DNA from: Conexibacter sp. S30A1
Lineage (GTDB): Bacteria > Actinomycetota > Thermoleophilia > Solirubrobacterales > Solirubrobacteraceae
DNA length: 64,000 bases
NCBI RefSeq assembly: GCF_023330665.1
Contig: NZ_CP097127.1
Span: 2,418,001 to 2,482,000 of the forward strand
Reading direction: 5' to 3'
In this document: positions 4,209 to 41,549 of the stretch, piece by piece
Numbering within the stretch: the stretch's first letter is position 1
Layout of the letters: each line of letters begins with the position of its first letter
Notes under the pieces: generated by a model
The model's input: only the letters and a program-made list of their open reading frames with translations
Database searches by the model: none
Told to the model about the DNA's origin: nothing
Translations under genes and position numbers: made by a program

Positions 4209-5867
4209 TTGATTATCGCCCGCTCAAGGCCCGCCACCCCCCGGCTGCGCGCAGCCACCCCCACGCTGCGCGCAGCCACCCCCACGCTGCTCGCCGCCGC
4301 CCTGGCAGCGACCTACCTGATCGTCTCCCCGCCCGGCGCCGACCTGCCCGCGCAACTGCTCAGAGCCCGCCTGGCCGGCACCCAGGGCGGCCTCGGCCTC
4401 TGGAACAACTGGTGGTATGCCGGTCAGTACACGCTCGGCTACAGCGTGCTGTACCCGCCGCTCGCCTGGCTGATCGGCCCGCGCCTGTTGGCGGCGGCCG
4501 CCTGCGTGGGCACCGCCGGCGCGTTTACCGCGCTCACCCAGGATGTGTGGGGGCAGGACGCCCGCCTCGGCGCCAGCTGGCTTGGCGCGGCGATCGTCAC
4601 CGAGCTTCTGAGCGGTCGCCTGAGCTTCGCGCTCGGTCTCTGCCCGGCGGCGTTCACGGCGCTGCTACTGGAGCGACGGCGGCCCCGCTGGGCCGCCGTT
4701 TGCGCGCCGCTCGCCACGCTCGCGAGTCCTGTGGCCGGCCTGTTTGCGGCGTTGGCGGGCCTGACCGCCGCGCTGCTGGTGCTCGGCACCGGCGGGCGCC
4801 GTCGCGGGCCGACCGGTCTGTGGGGTGGCGTCGCGGTGTTCGCGCTGCCGCTGCTTGCGATCGGCGCGACGCAGGTCGCCTTCCCGACCGCCGGCTACCA
4901 ACCCTTCGCGCTGGGGACCTTCTGGCCGCTACCGGTGATCGGCCTGGGCGTGCTGGCGGTGGCGCTGCGGCGTCGAGGTGACGGCCGGATCGCCGCCGCC
5001 GACCGGACCGTCGTCGCGGCGACGGTGCTCTACGTGGCCGGCTGCACGCTCGCCTTCCTGCTGCGCACGCCGCTTGGCGCAAACGCGGCGCGCCTCGGCG
5101 AGCTCCTCGCCGGTCCGCTGGCCGCGCTGCTTTTGGTCCACCGCCGCGCGTGGCTTCTGCTGGCACTGGTCGCGCTGCCGCTCGCCTACATCCAGGTGCA
5201 CGACGCGATCGGCGACCTTGAGCACGGCGCGCGCTCAAGCGACGCCGCCTTCTACCAGCCGCTGATCGGCTATCTGGAGCGCCAGCCCGGCGCCGACGCG
5301 CGTGCCTGGCGCGTCGAGGTGCCGTTCACCTCCGGCCACTGGGAGACCTACTACCTGGCTGCGCGCTTTCCGCTGGCGCGCGGCTGGGAGCGCCAGACCG
5401 ACATCGCCGATAACGCGCTCTTCTACGGCGGGCGCCTGAGCGCCGGAAGCTACCACGCCTGGCTCGAGCGTCTGGCCGTGCGCTACGTCGCGGTGGCTCA
5501 CACGCCGCCCGATTACTCCGCCAGGGGCGAGCTTGAGCTGATCGGCCACGGCCTGCCGTACCTGCGCCGGGTGGCCGCGCTGCCGCACTGGACGGTGTAT
5601 GAGCTGCGGGACCCGAGCGCGATCGTGACGGGCGCCGGTCGCCTGGTGGCGATGGGACCAGAGCGGCTCACACTCGCGGTCACACGCCCGGGCACGCTCA
5701 GCATCCGGGTGCGCTGGTCGCCCTACTGGCGCCTTGTCGGTGTGCCAGGCTGCGTCACCCCCGACGCCGGCTTCACGCGTGTGGTTGCGCGCGGCAGCGG
5801 CCGCGCGCAACTGCAGATGAGCTTCTCGCTGGCCCGGATCGGCTCATCGGGCCGCCGCTGCAATTAG
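4209..5867 (+). CDS. multipass membrane protein of unknown function (possible GT-C-like)
   Basis: A 552-residue protein. Roughly the first 330 residues hold about nine hydrophobic segments, beginning LLAAALAATYLIVSPPGADL. The last 220 residues look extracytoplasmic, with many aromatic and proline residues and motifs such as WETYYLAARFPLARGWERQ and YVAVAHTPPDYSARG. This resembles large actinobacterial membrane proteins annotated as putative glycosyltransferases or YfhO-like proteins, but no catalytic motif is clear, so I do not assign a reaction. The TTG start is chosen because TATCCT ends 8 nt before it and the coding frame has no ATG or GTG nearby. Residues 12-27 hold a duplicated RAATPTL encoded by a 21-bp DNA repeat. 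The insertion sequence ends 15 bp upstream and must have replaced the -35 region. Confidence 0.75.
   Translation: MIIARSRPATPRLRAATPTLRAATPTLLAAALAATYLIVSPPGADLPAQLLRARLAGTQGGLGLWNNWWYAGQYTLGYSVLYPPLAWLIGPRLLAAAACVGTAGAFTALTQDVWGQDARLGASWLGAAIVTELLSGRLSFALGLCPAAFTALLLERRRPRWAAVCAPLATLASPVAGLFAALAGLTAALLVLGTGGRRRGPTGLWGGVAVFALPLLAIGATQVAFPTAGYQPFALGTFWPLPVIGLGVLAVALRRRGDGRIAAADRTVVAATVLYVAGCTLAFLLRTPLGANAARLGELLAGPLAALLLVHRRAWLLLALVALPLAYIQVHDAIGDLEHGARSSDAAFYQPLIGYLERQPGADARAWRVEVPFTSGHWETYYLAARFPLARGWERQTDIADNALFYGGRLSAGSYHAWLERLAVRYVAVAHTPPDYSARGELELIGHGLPYLRRVAALPHWTVYELRDPSAIVTGAGRLVAMGPERLTLAVTRPGTLSIRVRWSPYWRLVGVPGCVTPDAGFTRVVARGSGRAQLQMSFSLARIGSSGRRCN
4244..4285 (+). repeat. two perfect 21-bp tandem repeats, each with a 12-bp palindrome
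   Basis: The 21-bp unit starting GCTGCGCGCAGCCACC occurs at 4244-4264 and 4265-4285, with the first bases of a third copy after it. It lies inside the 5' end of the membrane-protein gene and keeps the frame (seven codons, RAATPTL). GCTGCGCGCAGC in each unit is a perfect palindrome. Confidence 0.85.
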
Positions 5868-23085: not shown

Positions 23086-25980
23086 TCACCAGCCGCTCGA
23101 CAGGACCTCGTCGAGCATCGCCACGAAGAAGTCGACGCTGGCGGGCCGCACGCACAGCGGTGGCTTGATCTTCAGCACGTTCTGGTGGTCGCCGGTCGGC
23201 TGCATGATCACTCCGAGCGCGAGCAGCCGGTCGCAGATTGCCGCCGTCTCCTCGGTGGCAGGCTCGAGCGTGGAGCGATCGCGGACGAACTCCAGGCCGA
23301 GGTAGAGCCCCGCGCCGTGCACGGCGCCGATCAGCTCATGGCGCTGCGCGAGCGCCTCAAGGCCGGCGCGCAGACGCCCGCCCGTCAGGCGTGCGTTCTC
23401 CTGCAGGCGCTGCTCTTCGAGCACGTCCAGCACCGTCAGCCCGACCACGCTCGCAACCGGGCTGCCGCCCGTGGAGGAGAAGAAGTAGCCGCCGACCCGG
23501 TAGCGCTCAGCCACCTCGCGGCTGGTGATCACCGCGCCCAGCGGGTGGCCGTTACCCATCGCCTTGGCGACGGCGACGATGTCGGGCACCACGCCCTGCT
23601 GCTCAAAGCCCCAGAACCACTCACCGAGCCGCCCGTAGCCGACCTGGACCTCGTCAGCAATCACCAGCCCACCGTGACGGCGCACGGCCGCGTAGACCTG
23701 CTGCAGGTAGCCGTCGGGAAGCGCGAGGCCGCCCGCGTTGCCGTAGAAGGCCTCGGCGATAAACGCCGCCGGCGCCCGCCCAGAGGCGGCCAGCGCATCA
23801 ATCACCGCCACCGCCTCCGGCGCATAGCGCTTTGCCTGCGCGCCGCGGTGGCGACCGCGGAAGGCGTTGGCGGCATCCACCGTGTGCACCCAGGCGGGCC
23901 GTGTCGCCAGCGCATTGGGGTTGTCGGCGATGGAGGTGGAGACGGCATCTGACAGGTAGGTCCAGCCGTGGTAGGCCTCGCGCATCGCGACGATGTCAGC
24001 CCGGCCGGTGGCGGCCAGCGCCAGGCGCAGCGCCAGGTCGACCGCCTCAGAGCCCGAGTTGACGAAGAACACGCTGTCAAGCGGCTCCGGCAGCAGCGCC
24101 ACCAGCCGGCGCGAGAGCTCGGTGATCGCGGCGTAGTGAAAGCGCGAGTTGGTGTTCAGCCGCCGCAGCTGGCGTGAGACCGCAGCAGCGACCCGCGGAT
24201 GGGCGTGACCGAGGATCGTGACGTTGTTGACCATGTCCAGATGCACGCGGCCGTCGACGCTGATCAGGTGCTCCTGCCAGCCACGCTCGATCTGGGGCGG
24301 GCGGGCGTAGTAGTGCTCCTGCACCGAGGCGAGCGTGCGCTCGCGTTGCTCGAGCAACGCGTCCGCCTGGTCGGGCACCCGGGCAGGGCGCGGCTCGAGT
24401 CCTATGAGCGGCCCGGGGTCGGCGCACAGCGCAAGCCAGCCGGGCGCGTACTCGGGTCGCACATGGGCGGGGACCTCGTGGCCGCCGACGGCGAGCGCAA
24501 GCCGGATGCGAGCGCCGGCGGGCGCGAGCGCCAGACCGGCGTCGCTGGGCGCGACCCCGCTCACGCTCAGAACCAGTTCGGCTGTGGCGAGGCTGAGCGT
24601 GTCACCCTGCCAGCTGGGCTCACCGTCCCATGGCGCGGCAAGGACCGTGTCGTGCGCGAACCAGACGTCGGTCACGGTCGGCACCGTCGCCGGTGAGACG
24701 CTCGCGAGCGGCCGTGCGCGCGGGAGCTGCACGACCCCATAGGGCAGCGCCACCGCCTCGGCGCGCGTGAGCGCCTGGGCGATAAGCCGCTCGGTGGCGT
24801 CCTGCTCGAGCCAGAGGCCCTCATCAACCAGCTCCGATTCGGCTGATAGCTCGAGCGTGGTTGGCTTGGCGCCGGCGCTGAGCGCCCGCGCCGCGGCGGG
24901 CAGCCGCGGCGCGGGCGCCCCCAGGCCCAGCGCATCGCGCACCAGGGCGGTCATCACCGCGACCGGCACCGCGCTCGCTCGGTTGAAGACCGCGGCCTCA
25001 CGGTCCAGGCCATCCCAGGCGTGCGTGTGCTCGCCGTCGATCGCGACCTGCTGGTGGCTTGAGACGGTCAGCACGGCAGCGCGGATCACGACCAGCGGCC
25101 AGAGCACCTGTGCCTCAGCGACCTCAAGCGGCGCCAGCCGGTGGAAGGCACGGACAGCCTCGAGCAGCGTGTGCGGCTCGGCGCCCGGGTGGTGCAGCAG
25201 CGAGGCGAGCATCGTGGCGAGCTCGCCGACGCGCCAGGAGACGGCGAGGTCGCCGAGGTCGATCACGCCGTCCGGCAGCGGCACGCCGTGTGGAAGGGTG
25301 CTGAGCAGGTTCTCGTCGGTGAGGTCGAAATGGCCCGCCTGCAGCGGCAGCTCGGAGGCGAGCTGTTGGACCTGTGCCCACGCCGACTCCCCGTCAGCCC
25401 GCAGGCGCGCGCGCAGGGTTGCGTCGGGCACGTGCTCGAGCAGCACGGCCAGGGCACGATCGCCGTGACGCAGGTCCCACTGCAGCACGCGCTCGAGCCC
25501 TGGATGAGCGAAGTCGGCAAGCGCCGTGCTCACCCGGGCGGCGAGCGTCCCCAGCGCCGCCATCACGCGCGGCGAGAGGTAGCCGCAGCGCACCAGCGTG
25601 CGCCCCGGCAGGTAGCTGACCACGTGCGCCACAAGCGGTCCCTCGGAGGTGGCAACGCTGGCCACCAGCGGCGCCCCATCGAGGCCGGTGAGCGCGGTCG
25701 CCACCCGGCACCCGGGCAGACGCTCTGATAGCAGTCGCGCAGCCAGCACCTGGGCCTGCACCTCGCCCAGGTTGACCGCCCGGTTTGCCAGCTTGAGCAC
25801 GCCGAGCGGCCCACCCTCGCCGTCGCGCAGCAGGAAGTTCTGGTCCTGTTGGCTACCCAACGACTCGGCCCGTGCCTCAAGGCCGAAGTGCTCGCTGGCA
25901 AGACGTTCGGCCTCGGCCAGGCCGACACGGGGCGCCGGCAGCGCCCCGTGGGCAAAGAAGTCGAGACCGGCGCCTGCCAT
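23086..25980 (-). CDS. phosphotransferase-aminotransferase fusion (APH + beta domain + class III aminotransferase)
   Basis: 964 residues in three parts. Residues about 25-330 resemble aminoglycoside/choline kinase-like phosphotransferases; AGHFDLTDENLL is the catalytic loop and VIDLGDLAVSWRVGELA the metal-binding loop. Residues about 380-530 are beta-rich, as in peptidase M23-linked members of this family. Residues about 540-964 are a class III aminotransferase or phospho-lyase with FFVNSGSEAVDLALRLA, YHGWTYLSDA, IADEVQVGYGRLG and the PLP lysine in VAVAKAMGNGHPLGAV. Related fusions phosphorylate a hydroxylated amine (for example hydroxylysine) and then eliminate phosphate and ammonia. The ATG is at 25978-25980. 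Confidence 0.85.
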   Translation of the reverse strand: MAGAGLDFFAHGALPAPRVGLAEAERLASEHFGLEARAESLGSQQDQNFLLRDGEGGPLGVLKLANRAVNLGEVQAQVLAARLLSERLPGCRVATALTGLDGAPLVASVATSEGPLVAHVVSYLPGRTLVRCGYLSPRVMAALGTLAARVSTALADFAHPGLERVLQWDLRHGDRALAVLLEHVPDATLRARLRADGESAWAQVQQLASELPLQAGHFDLTDENLLSTLPHGVPLPDGVIDLGDLAVSWRVGELATMLASLLHHPGAEPHTLLEAVRAFHRLAPLEVAEAQVLWPLVVIRAAVLTVSSHQQVAIDGEHTHAWDGLDREAAVFNRASAVPVAVMTALVRDALGLGAPAPRLPAAARALSAGAKPTTLELSAESELVDEGLWLEQDATERLIAQALTRAEAVALPYGVVQLPRARPLASVSPATVPTVTDVWFAHDTVLAAPWDGEPSWQGDTLSLATAELVLSVSGVAPSDAGLALAPAGARIRLALAVGGHEVPAHVRPEYAPGWLALCADPGPLIGLEPRPARVPDQADALLEQRERTLASVQEHYYARPPQIERGWQEHLISVDGRVHLDMVNNVTILGHAHPRVAAAVSRQLRRLNTNSRFHYAAITELSRRLVALLPEPLDSVFFVNSGSEAVDLALRLALAATGRADIVAMREAYHGWTYLSDAVSTSIADNPNALATRPAWVHTVDAANAFRGRHRGAQAKRYAPEAVAVIDALAASGRAPAAFIAEAFYGNAGGLALPDGYLQQVYAAVRRHGGLVIADEVQVGYGRLGEWFWGFEQQGVVPDIVAVAKAMGNGHPLGAVITSREVAERYRVGGYFFSSTGGSPVASVVGLTVLDVLEEQRLQENARLTGGRLRAGLEALAQRHELIGAVHGAGLYLGLEFVRDRSTLEPATEETAAICDRLLALGVIMQPTGDHQNVLKIKPPLCVRPASVDFFVAMLDEVLSSGW

Positions 25981-38373: not shown

Positions 38374-39801
38374 ATGCCTACCACGACGAAGACCATGAGC
38401 AGTGATGTGTTGTTGGCCCAGCCCCCGTTCGGGGTGATGTCTCCCGCGCCTGGGTTGGGCGGGGAGGAGCGAAGCGACGAGCCGCCCAACCCAGGCGCGG
38501 CGCGGCCGGTGCCGGGGCTCGAGGAGGCGGTCGAGCGCGCGATCGCGCGTCGGCGGGTCCGTTGCGCGGTTGGGGGCGTTGAGGAGTCCTTGATCTCCGA
38601 CGAGGTGATCGACGAGCTGCTGGCTGGCGCCAGGACCGAGGAGGAGATCCTTGGGTCAGGCGGGGTTCTTGGCCGGCTGACTAAACGGCTGGTGGAGCGT
38701 GCGATGAACGCGGAGCTGACCTGCCATGTCGGCTATGAGCCCCACCAGGAGCCCGCTGGCGGCGCGGCCAACCAGCGCAACGGGACGAGCGTAAAGACGC
38801 TCGTGAGCGATCACGGCAAGATCGTGATCGACGCGCCCAGGGACCGGGCAGGCACGTTTGAGCCGCAGATCGTCAAGAAGCGTCAGCGGCGCCTTGCCGG
38901 GATCGATCAGAAGATCCTCGCGCTCTACAGCCGTGGCCTGTCGACCCGTGACATCGAGGGCTACATGCAAGAGCTCTACGGCACGGGTGTGAGCCGTGAG
39001 CTGATAAGCCGCGTGACCGACCAGGTCGCAGACGACGTGCGTGAGTGGGCCAAACGGCCGCTTGAGACGATCTACCCCGTCGTGTTTTTGGACTGCATGG
39101 TGCTCAAGATCCGTGATGGTGGCAGCGTCGGGCACAAAGCGCTCTACATAGCGCTCGGGATCACCCTGGACGGCGACCGGGACGTGCTCGGCATGTGGTT
39201 TCAGGAGACGGAGGGCGCGAAGTTCTGGATGCAGGCGCTCAACGACCTGAAGACCCGTGGTGTGCGCGACATCCTGATCTGCTGTGTCGACGGGCTCACA
39301 GGGTTCCCTGAGGCGATCGAGGCGATCTTCCCGAAGACCACGGTCCAGACATGCATCGTGCACATGATCCGCTCAAGTCTCAAATACGTGCCCAGACGCG
39401 ACCGTGAGCAAGTCGCCCGCGACCTCAAACCGATCTACACCGCGATCAACGCCGAGCAGGCATGGGCCGCACTGGAGGCCTTCGATGAGAAGTGGGGAGC
39501 GCGCTTCCCGATCATCACCCGGCAGTGGACCGCCGCCTGGGAGCACATCACACCGTTCCTCGCCTTCCCCGCCGAGGTCCGCCGGATCATCTACACCACC
39601 AACGCGATCGAGGCGCTCAACCGGCAGCTACGCAAAGCCATCAAAACCAAGGGCAGCTTCCCCAACGAGGACTCAGCCCGCAAGCTCGTCTACCTCTGCC
39701 TCCAGAACGCCGTCCCGCAATGGACCCGCTGCCGGAACTGGACAGCCGCGCTGCTAGCGCTCAAGATCCACTTCGGTGACCGGATCCCGGACGCAAGCTG
39801 A
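38374..39801 (+). CDS. IS256 (Mutator-type) transposase
   Basis: 475 residues. Catalytic residues: Asp in VVFLDCMVLKIRDG, Asp in ILICCVDGLTGFPEAIEAIF with the family's C-H region (QTCIVHMIRSSLKYV) after it, and Glu in YTTNAIEALNRQLRKAIKTK. AGGAG precedes the ATG. Residues about 25-45 (PGLGGEERSDEPPNPGAA) are foreign to the family and come from a palindromic DNA insert at 38445-38499. The frame remains open, so the enzyme may still work. Confidence 0.95.
   Translation: MPTTTKTMSSDVLLAQPPFGVMSPAPGLGGEERSDEPPNPGAARPVPGLEEAVERAIARRRVRCAVGGVEESLISDEVIDELLAGARTEEEILGSGGVLGRLTKRLVERAMNAELTCHVGYEPHQEPAGGAANQRNGTSVKTLVSDHGKIVIDAPRDRAGTFEPQIVKKRQRRLAGIDQKILALYSRGLSTRDIEGYMQELYGTGVSRELISRVTDQVADDVREWAKRPLETIYPVVFLDCMVLKIRDGGSVGHKALYIALGITLDGDRDVLGMWFQETEGAKFWMQALNDLKTRGVRDILICCVDGLTGFPEAIEAIFPKTTVQTCIVHMIRSSLKYVPRRDREQVARDLKPIYTAINAEQAWAALEAFDEKWGARFPIITRQWTAAWEHITPFLAFPAEVRRIIYTTNAIEALNRQLRKAIKTKGSFPNEDSARKLVYLCLQNAVPQWTRCRNWTAALLALKIHFGDRIPDAS
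38445..38499 (+). repeat. 55-bp palindromic element inside the transposase gene
   Basis: CGCGCCTGGGTTGGGCGG (38445-38462) and its perfect complement (38482-38499) flank a 19-nt centre, GGAGGAGCGAAGCGACGAG. It is read in frame, adding a charged loop. This resembles small repeated palindromic elements known to enter coding regions in some bacteria. Confidence 0.75.
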
Positions 39802-40019: not shown

Positions 40020-40640
40020 ATGATTGATGAGCGTGCGATTGCTGTGAGGTGGGAGTCGGTGGGCCCGTTGTTGGATGAGCGTCAGCGGCGGGTGTTCGCG
40101 GCGGGGGAGGCGCGTTCGCATGGTCGTGGCGGGATCGCCGCGACGGCGCGTGTGACCGGTCTTTCGCGCAGGACGATCGAGCGGGGGCTGGTGGAGCTTC
40201 AGGCGGGTGAGCGTTTGGAGGCGGGCCGGGTGCGTCGGCCTGGTGCTGGGCGCCCGTCGCTTGTGGCCAGAGATCCGACAGTGGTGGAGGATCTCGAGCG
40301 GCTGGTGTGCCCGGCGACGCGTGGTGATCCTGAGCGGCCGCTTCTGTGGACGTCGAAGAGTGCCGCGAAGCTGGCGGTAGGGCTCAGGGAGCTGGGCCAT
40401 GAGATCGCCGACCGGTCGGTGCTGCGGCTGCTTGCCGGCAGCGGGTACACGGTGCAGGCGAACGTCAAGACCAGGGAGGGCAAAGATCATCCCGATCGTG
40501 ACCAGCAGTTTGAGCACATCAACTCAACGGTCGCGCAGGCGCTTGCGGCTCATGAGCCGGTGATCAGCATCGACACCTCATGCCGACGTCGGCATGAACC
40601 GTCTGATGCCGACCTGGCGGGCATGCCGATCTCGGCCTGA
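40020..40640 (+). pseudogene. ISAzo13-family transposase, N-terminal part
   Basis: 186 family codons ending PVISIDT at 40577, including the helix-turn-helix AATARVTGLSRRTIERGLVE and the region RSVLRLLAGSGYTVQANVKT. It then continues into inserted DNA for 20 unrelated residues and stops. The first catalytic aspartate (ISIDT) is at the break. GGAGG precedes the ATG at 40020. Confidence 0.9.
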
Positions 40641-40886
40641 AAGTCCTAGCGGAGTGGGGTGATCGTCCACGACCTGGCCGGCATGATCGCGCGGGTCTTG
40701 TCGAGCTGGCTCGAGATCGTCCCCAGGCGGATCCCTAGACGTTCCGGGACACGCAACTCCGTGCTGGCCCCTTTTGACAGCCCGTAAGCCTGGCGAATAT
40801 GCCGACCTTCCCGCAGCGATCACCCTGCATCCTGCGGCATGAGCCAGAGGGAGGTCGGCATGACCGCCAGGTCGGCATCAGACGGT
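40578..40886. mobile_element. 309-bp MITE-like insert with 36-bp inverted repeats
   Basis: Its ends at 40598-40633 and 40851-40886 are inverted repeats matching at 34 of 36 positions and beginning ACCGTCTGATGCCGACC. To the left is a 20-bp perfect palindrome, TCATGCCGACGTCGGCATGA (40578-40597). Cutting out exactly 309 bp (103 codons) joins ISIDT to KKKELVG in frame. No transposase is encoded; a minus-strand stretch of about 60 codons (about 40813-40641) has no recognisable match. No target duplication is visible. Several more copies of GTCGGCAT lie inside. Confidence 0.85.
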
Positions 40887-41549
40887 AAGAAGAAGGAGCT
40901 GGTCGGCAACTTCAAAGCCGTTGGGCGTGAGTGGGCCAAAAGCGGTCAGCCGGTGCAGGTCAACACCCATGACTTCCCCAGCCACGCTGAGGGCAAGGCG
41001 ATCCCTTACGGTGTCTATGACCTGGCACGGAACGAGGGCTGGATCCAGGTCGGGGTCAGCTCAGACACCGCCCAATTCGCTGCCGGCTCGATCCTCGCCT
41101 GGTGGCGGGGACTTGGCCGGGAACGCTACCCGCACGCCACGATCCTGACGATCACCGCCGACTCCGGCGGATCAAACAGCGCCCGCGGACGGCTGTGGAA
41201 GATCGAGCTGCAAAAGCTCTCCGATCTGATCGGCATCCCGATCCGGGTCTGCCACTTCCCGGCCGGCACGTCGAAGTGGAACAAGATCGAGCACCGCCTG
41301 TTCAGCTTCGTGAGCGTCAACTGGCGCGGCAAGCCGCTCTACGACTACGCCACGATCATCAACCTGATCGCCTCAACGACCACCAGCACCGGCCTGAAGG
41401 TCTACGCCCGTCTGGACCAGGCCGACTACCCCAAAGGCATCGAGGTCACCGACGCCGAGCTGGCGAACGTCAACATCGAACGTCATGAGTTCCACGGCGA
41501 CTGGAACTACACCATCCACCCAGCAACTACGACACTAATAAAGTCGTGA
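40887..41549 (+). pseudogene. ISAzo13-family transposase, C-terminal part
   Basis: Continues the family from KKKELVGNFKAVGREW through IPYGVYDLARNEGWIQVG, the second catalytic aspartate in ITADSGGSN and CHFPAGTSKWNKIEHRLFSF. An ATG at 40839 in the insert opens this frame but no real promoter is evident. The stop codon TGA (41547-41549) lies outside the right end of the element, so the last codons come from host DNA. Confidence 0.9.

Follow-up and report, generated by a model that had tools for sequence, protein, structure and literature searches.

The 64,000-nucleotide stretch of Conexibacter sp. S30A1 analyzed here (the window; GCF_023330665.1, NZ_CP097127.1, 2,418,001-2,482,000) belongs to a genome of 3.46 Mb in one contig. 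Positions are window positions unless a contig is named. The window carries an ISAzo13-family transposase gene split by an insert of 309 bp (3 x 103; 40578-40886), whose ends resemble those of recombinase-in-trio (RIT) elements.

A 309-bp insert in an ISAzo13 transposase gene

Both halves of the transposase matched PF07592 and NF033519, placing the host element in the ISAzo13 family (Table 1). The NF033519 score of the 5' half, 186.5 bits, is below the 200-bit cut-off, as expected of a fragment. The insertion point lies between GAC-ACC and AAG-AAG, at the catalytic-motif codons of the gene; the D of ISIDT is presumably the first catalytic residue of the DDE transposase. The insert has 36-bp inverted repeats (40598-40633 and 40851-40886) with matches at 34 positions; its left edge alone bears a perfect 20-bp palindrome. 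The sole open reading frame (ORF) of at least 50 aa wholly within it encodes 81 aa and gave no Pfam match at E 0.001. The word GTCGGCAT occurs six times within the insert and eight times in the whole window, where 3.0 copies are expected and eight were reached in none of 100 shuffles. Perfect palindromes of at least 18 bp are found four times in the window, so that a 20-bp palindrome alone is not rare. The other perfect 20-bp palindromes, at 24342, 51751 and 53857, have a different sequence.

Table 1. Features of the insert and of the interrupted transposase gene (c1, c2 and c3, 6-bp cores).
Feature	Position	Strand	Evidence
ISAzo13-family transposase, 5' part, ends ...ISIDT	40020..40577	+	PF07592 E 2.3e-30, NF033519 E 7.7e-55 (ORF 40020-40640)
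c3, outer 6-bp core at palindrome end, GACACC, the target's own bases	40572..40577	+	Identical at 10/18 intact sites, near variants at the rest
Perfect 20-bp palindrome TCATGCCGAC/GTCGGCATGA, part of the RIT-type end	40578..40597	.	Similar palindrome at one end of other RITs
c2, inner 6-bp core ACCGTC	40598..40603	+	Reverse complement of the far-end core; placed by comparison with RITs
Left terminal region, probably ritA-side RIT end	40604..40712	+	70% over 112 bp (insert 24-135) to L197 ritA-side end
Possible decayed final ritC codons and stop, suggestive only	40722..40787	+	33/66 bases at the expected register
Right terminal region, probably ritC-side RIT end	40776..40880	-	72% over 109 bp to L197 ritC-side end
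c1, 6-bp core at palindrome-free end, GACGGT	40881..40886	+	Exact reverse complement of c2
ISAzo13-family transposase, 3' part, starts KKKELVG	40887..41549	+	PF07592 E 3.1e-96, NF033519 E 2.6e-102 (ORF 40839-41549)

When the 3' half of the transposase was searched against 146 family genomes (E up to 1e-60), 19 loci in 13 genomes were found. Apart from the locus in the window, all 18 were without an insert at this site (L245, L249 and L250 among them), four of them being other copies in the host genome. The bases at the intact sites were GAC ACC (10 loci), GAT ACC (three) and GAC GCC, GAC GCG, GAT TGC or GAC TGC (one each); L249 has one extra base. Since the intact sites continue straight through, the borders of the insert are defined to the nucleotide and the target shows no duplication: occupied and intact homologous sites differ by exactly 309 bp. 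A preliminary description of the locus had given the length of the insert, its repeats and its palindrome, and had proposed that it is nested at the catalytic-motif codons of another transposon, contains no transposase, lacks a target duplication and leaves an intact gene when removed. All of these points were borne out, and the insert has no recombinase gene either. L249 (G014:C49), an uninterrupted ISAzo13 transposase gene, has a +1 frameshift precisely at the target codons, which could be chance or a scar.

The insert is present once in the host genome, and no second full-length match was found in the 146 family genomes. The preliminary description had called it similar to a miniature inverted-repeat transposable element (MITE). 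This is apt insofar as it is short, has inverted repeats and encodes no transposase; its status as a MITE is unproven, given the single copy and the possibility of an in-place deletion.

RIT-type ends of the insert and its relatives

Searched as DNA against the 146 family genomes, the insert found matches in 13, several of the matches being short. In one genome (G014, locus L145), two inverted copies of the right end were found 3.3 kb apart, with three overlapping Phage_integrase genes between them, which is the organization of a RIT. The right terminal region of the insert is 75% and 73% identical to the two ends of this RIT (85 aligned columns). Relatives of RitB were detected in 17 of the 146 genomes at E 1e-30. 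The nearest relative of the insert among those found, L197 (G094:C202), came to light through its RIT, outside the 19-locus transposase search. It is a complete RIT with three Phage_integrase proteins and lies in another genus. On its left flank, coding sequence of an ISAzo13-type transposase (60% identity over 161 residues) extends as far as the same D codon. On the right, the initial 14 bp of the flank are identical to the next codons of an intact homologue (L242), after which the sequences diverge, 126 bp from the contig end. L197 thus appears, from its flanks, to be interrupted at the same ISAzo13 codons as the transposase gene in the window. Full-length relatives of the insert, which the preliminary description had envisaged with a transposase, do exist, and they carry recombinases instead.

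L197 and the insert share their end sequences, the palindrome (TCATGCCGACATCGGCATGA) and its position on the same side of the apparently common target. Unlike the insert, L197 has retained three recombinase genes, and its cores c1/c2/c3 read GGTGTC/GGCGTC/GGCGTC compared to ACCGTC/ACCGTC/GGTGTC in the insert. The ritC-side end of L197 likewise aligns with the first 64 bp of the insert, at 83% identity. Altogether, the terminal inverted repeats of the insert are 70-83% identical to the ends of L145 and L197, but the three adjacent, overlapping tyrosine recombinase genes ritA, ritB and ritC that define a RIT are absent from it, and we therefore call it RIT-derived rather than a RIT.

The arrangement of the ends agrees as well. 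A usual RIT has a palindrome (TTATGCCGAC GTCGGCATAA or variants) at one end, with six bases (c2) between it and the terminal arm. Beyond the palindrome follow another six bases (c3), which often pair with c2 to form a perfect or near-perfect 32-bp palindrome. The other end consists of the arm and six bases (c1) alone. Read on the minus strand, the window has the order flank, c1 (ACCGTC), terminal repeat, interior, terminal repeat, inverted c2, 20-bp palindrome, c3 (GGTGTC), flank. The gap from CGGCAT to ATGCCG is 10 bp here, and inspection by eye gave the same for the RITs that have these hexamers, so the insert has the end palindrome that overlaps the terminal repeat with fixed spacing. In 232 order genomes, the pattern of palindrome, 6 bp and arm (up to two mismatches) occurred 11 times in eight genomes and never when read backwards. 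Both pattern searches together gave 14 distinct places and none in the reversed controls; 11 of the 14 have a piece of a Rit gene, and the remaining three are the window and two loci at contig ends. The combination exceeds chance. The palindrome is part of the end of the element and no accidental neighbor of the left repeat, as which the preliminary description had treated it.

Plasmid RITs of Acidithiobacillus, Sphingobium, Acidiphilium and Bradyrhizobium have the same palindrome or a close variant; in Rhodococcus the palindrome is another. Of 72,556 plasmid records, 570 were hit by a RitB query at E 1e-5, a number that includes related recombinases. By script, core/palindrome triplets were extracted from 26 of 34 loci (two spurious rows of L194 were disregarded). 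The palindrome lies on the ritA side in 13 of 24 loci and on the ritC side in 11, in a count that omits the window and L264 and retains near-duplicates. At 16 loci (15 from family genomes, including the window, and the Rhodococcus plasmid locus L236; 14 taken from the script, L147 and L195 read by eye), c1/c2, c1/c3 and c2/c3 agree at 79, 81 and 86 of 96 bases, compared to shuffle means of 32-33 and maxima of 52-57. The core table omits the near-duplicates L258, L259 and L262 and the double-palindrome locus L264.

A second gutted RIT, one without complete recombinase genes, was found at L146 (G090:C88:3656-4119). It measures 464 bp from arm to arm and lies beside an ORF with a DDE_3 domain. 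Like the insert, it has both RIT ends, a one-sided palindrome and no complete rit gene. It differs in its arm (TTAGGCCGACC), palindrome (TTGTGCCGACGTCGGCACAA) and target, and has kept an N-terminal piece of RitA (51% over 47 residues). In the middle of the insert itself, a possible remnant of ritC coding sequence is suggestive: the ungapped register test placed it as joint best of 9490 windows, and tblastx linked this part to L197.

Further relics were seen elsewhere. L148 (G074:C41, 128-175) consists of a palindrome, a core and two directly fused arms (TATGCCGAACTCGGCATA) beside codons that look IS256-like by eye, and is possibly the smallest RIT relic. A plasmid scan for gutted RITs matched 79 records, of which 60 were listed and six inspected: two complete Phaeobacter RITs and four relics (L293-L296) that have a single RIT end, the ritC-side one, lack an annotated rit gene and in some cases still have the palindrome. 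No further two-ended gutted RIT was present among these six, and the insert itself had no match in the plasmids. Searches of genome_contigs and viral_contigs for exact end words of 17 and 15 bp turned up 40 and 84 stretches; those genome stretches that were compared with the insert (L021-L048) matched it over no more than 38 bp, and the set was taken as chance. Among the matches of the family search with the insert, three (L008, L016, L018) read VIDVGMNR in the frame of an ORF and look like folD; these and the short matches were treated as chance.

Proposed exchange at 6-bp cores and its alternatives

RIT-type ends, a one-sided palindrome and 6-bp cores in an element without recombinase genes make it likely that the insert is a gutted RIT. 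In our judgment it is probably an internally deleted, non-autonomous RIT, whose insertion into the transposase gene would have been a tyrosine-recombinase exchange at one of the 6-bp cores. The preliminary description had suggested a new non-autonomous element. Non-autonomous it is, in that it has no recombinase gene; a new family it is not, since its ends are RIT ends.

Natural comparisons between nearly identical RITs bear on how such an insertion could proceed. A Phaeobacter RIT is 100% identical at three sites over 3479 bp, from the arm through c2, the palindrome and c3. Site 1 lies in an annotated ArdC-like gene. Sites 2 and 3 have no annotated gene at the junction, and their flanks read like an ArdC-like protein too (..WAHEL / ATK..HRLNRD). 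The flanks of site 1 are largely unrelated to the others, and those of sites 2 and 3 are 87% and 85% identical to each other. The c1 core, in frame with the HEL codons of the target, is GACCCA at site 1 and GGCCCA at sites 2 and 3, while c2 (CACGCA) and c3 (GGCTCA) are constant at all three. One outer core thus belongs to the target and the others are carried by the element. In two Acidiphilium plasmids (L259 and L260), a RIT identical over 3347 bp lies between matching flanks (96.8% and 93.9%), with both the RIT body and the 32-bp core-palindrome-core block inverted. In two Bradyrhizobium plasmids (L261 and L262), the RITs are 99.94% identical and the body is inverted, while the palindrome stays with the flank and one base of c3 is changed. 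All three comparisons fit an exchange at 6-bp cores, and the identical copies at different sites lead us to infer that RITs are moved by the Rit recombinases.

The following model would account for these observations. A RIT would form a circle whose junction is a double attachment site of arm, core, palindrome, core and arm, with equivalent halves. Either core of the circle could pair with a 6-bp core of the target. Strand exchange would then leave the six bases of the target at one outer edge and the six carried bases at the other; the unused core would be kept inside as c2, and the palindrome would remain on one side. In the window, c3 (GACACC on the plus strand) would come from the target, and c1 and c2 (both ACCGTC) would have been carried. 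The predicted added length, 277 + 6 + 20 + 6 = 309, is the one seen, with no target duplication. Core exchange would explain together why the palindrome is one-sided, why the target is not duplicated and why the length is exact, and the use of either half would allow the palindrome at either end, with c1 and c3 being the target's and the carried core in either order. As a rule, the comparisons suggest that RITs may insert by swapping six bases beside the palindrome, with no copying of the target. A wider proposal is that RITs and their non-autonomous derivatives share a symmetric double attachment site of which either half integrates, giving either orientation, in-place flips and a six-base memory of an earlier target, and that gutted RITs are a mobile class, which borrows its recombinases from full RITs and homes in on the catalytic-motif codons of other mobile genes. 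To this proposal we assign an even chance.

Several observations weigh against the reading of the insert as an internally deleted RIT that entered by core exchange. Next to L197, no 3' half of the ISAzo13 transposase was detected, so that the shared target rests on the left flank and the 14 bp. The one RIT found in the host genome (L189, G000:C1:2635932-2647576) has an arm (TTATGCGGGGCGGC) and a palindrome (TCATGCCGGTACCGGCATGA) that differ from the ends of the insert, and is broken up by about 8 kb of insertions that part ritA from ritB and ritC. The gap between ritA and ritB holds ORFs with domains of a reverse transcriptase, of IstB and of two integrase cores, one of these combined with helix-turn-helix domains. 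No autonomous partner with the same ends as the insert was thus found in the host genome. The insert is single-copy, and hence provides no proof that the gutted form moves. In a gapped local DNA alignment, the possible ritC remnant did not rise above shuffles (486 of 500 were as good). Two of the Phaeobacter loci have related flanks and are perhaps not fully independent. The script gave no triplet at eight of the 34 loci (L147, L193, L195, L196, L200, L201, L226 and L233), and in L264, a RIT of an Agrobacterium plasmid, both ends carry the palindrome (1471-1502 and 4836-4867), unlike the other RITs read. At eight plasmid loci with similar cores, core agreement was 38, 34 and 32 of 48 bases, which does not exceed the highest values of 5000 shuffles; three of eight plasmid loci and two of 16 others have three different cores. 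To some extent, the core comparison mirrors the target preferences of the individual RIT subfamilies. In L189, all three cores are TCAGTG; the ORFs that flank this RIT look by eye like two parts of one gene and have no Pfam match.

With a single copy, and a host RIT that has other ends and is interrupted, the insert may have been moved in trans or have decayed in place. In the latter case, a complete RIT landed at these codons and then lost its interior, and the 309 bp are a fossil that never moved as a unit. The chances of such a history are evenly balanced. A full RIT at apparently the same codons in another genus (L197), the single copy and the one-ended plasmid relics speak for it; the insert keeps both ends, the palindrome and three cores, as a movable unit would, and a second two-ended gutted RIT lies in another target (L146), neither of which is decisive against it. 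A folded single strand, as in integron cassettes, or a strand-biased copy-out, as in SE elements, could take the place of the double-stranded circle. The near-perfect 32-bp core-palindrome-core of several RITs could form a hairpin, and SE intermediates are reported to include 6 bp of left flank (PMC10214605). The use of either side and the clean inversions fit double-strand exchange at least as well, and we regard such a route as rather unlikely.

Two other explanations are far less probable still. An ordinary MITE of a DDE transposon with a decayed target duplication would be short, with terminal inverted repeats and no coding capacity, as the insert is. This is contradicted by L145 and L197, since the ends match tyrosine-recombinase elements; no bases are duplicated at the border, which is the same as the intact site on either side, and the one-sided palindrome with its 6-bp spacer is common to RITs, which makes such an origin highly improbable. 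The position of the palindrome outside the 36-bp repeats and on one side only could also point to two events, in which a palindrome was inserted, or left by repair, beside an inverted-repeat element. This is hardly credible either, because the order of palindrome, 6 bp and arm recurs at one end of many RITs, among them those of Alphaproteobacteria, Acidithiobacillus and Rhodococcus plasmids.

Targets and comparison with known systems

Several RITs lie in genes of other mobile elements. L198 is inserted in an IS256-type transposase gene, and its flank is nearly the IS256 sequence of the window up to the CIVHMIR codons. In the window itself, a full-length IS256-family transposase ORF (38374-39801) is located just upstream of the ISAzo13 element, with its CIVHMIR codons free. 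Several plasmid RITs are found in ArdC-type genes, and at L194 (3537-6934) a second RIT splits the ritC of another. The flank of L164 reads like the start of ritC (MSLLAPTLQAF). Published targets are the transposase gene of a Tn6049-related transposon and radC (PMC3414803), and the tnpA of IS66 (PMC2864759). From these individual examples, RITs appear to settle regularly at conserved codons of mobile genes, in keeping with the preliminary description.

In a 2012 survey, RITs were described and placed in transposase genes, and the search for binding sites yielded only the inverted repeat and the overlapping palindrome (PMC3414803). In a table of 2023, both the target specificity and the empty site of RITs are marked as untested (PMC10214605). 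RitA, RitB and RitC have been classed (PMC8138268), and RitABC is listed in Acidithiobacillus islands (PMC10322971). A non-autonomous RIT was not found in our literature searches, which did not cover the main 2013 paper on RIT organization; we therefore claim novelty only for a variant of RITs, not for a new family. RITs are widespread, as the plasmid matches illustrate, yet their binding sites were left undefined in the 2012 survey (PMC3414803). The conserved gene around the gutted copy allows the borders of this copy to be placed at single-base resolution. Combined with the identical RITs found at several sites, it leads to a concrete, testable rule for insertion by three tyrosine recombinases. 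It also means that a RIT reduced to about 300 bp can pass for a DDE-type MITE.

Compared to DDE-transposon MITEs, the insert is likewise short, with inverted repeats and no transposase, but it differs in its single copy, its tyrosine-recombinase-type ends and the missing target duplication. SE elements, GInts and Tn554 resemble the RIT type in having several tyrosine recombinases, in a 6-bp spacer or footprint (SE elements, for which 6-bp spacers are reported in PMC10214605, and Tn554) and in attachment-site variants (GInts, PMC5385486). Their gene sets are different, and a one-sided terminal palindrome is not mentioned in the available parts of PMC10214605 and PMC5385486. The closest known systems are the RITs themselves, for example those of Cupriavidus metallidurans CH34 and pHG1, which share with the insert the terminal inverted repeats, the overlapping palindrome and the placement in transposase or mobile-element genes (PMC3414803, PMC2864759). 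The insert differs from them in the absence of rit genes and in its length of 309 bp instead of about 3.5 kb. The core and palindrome logic proposed here was not encountered in the available text of PMC3414803 or PMC2864759.
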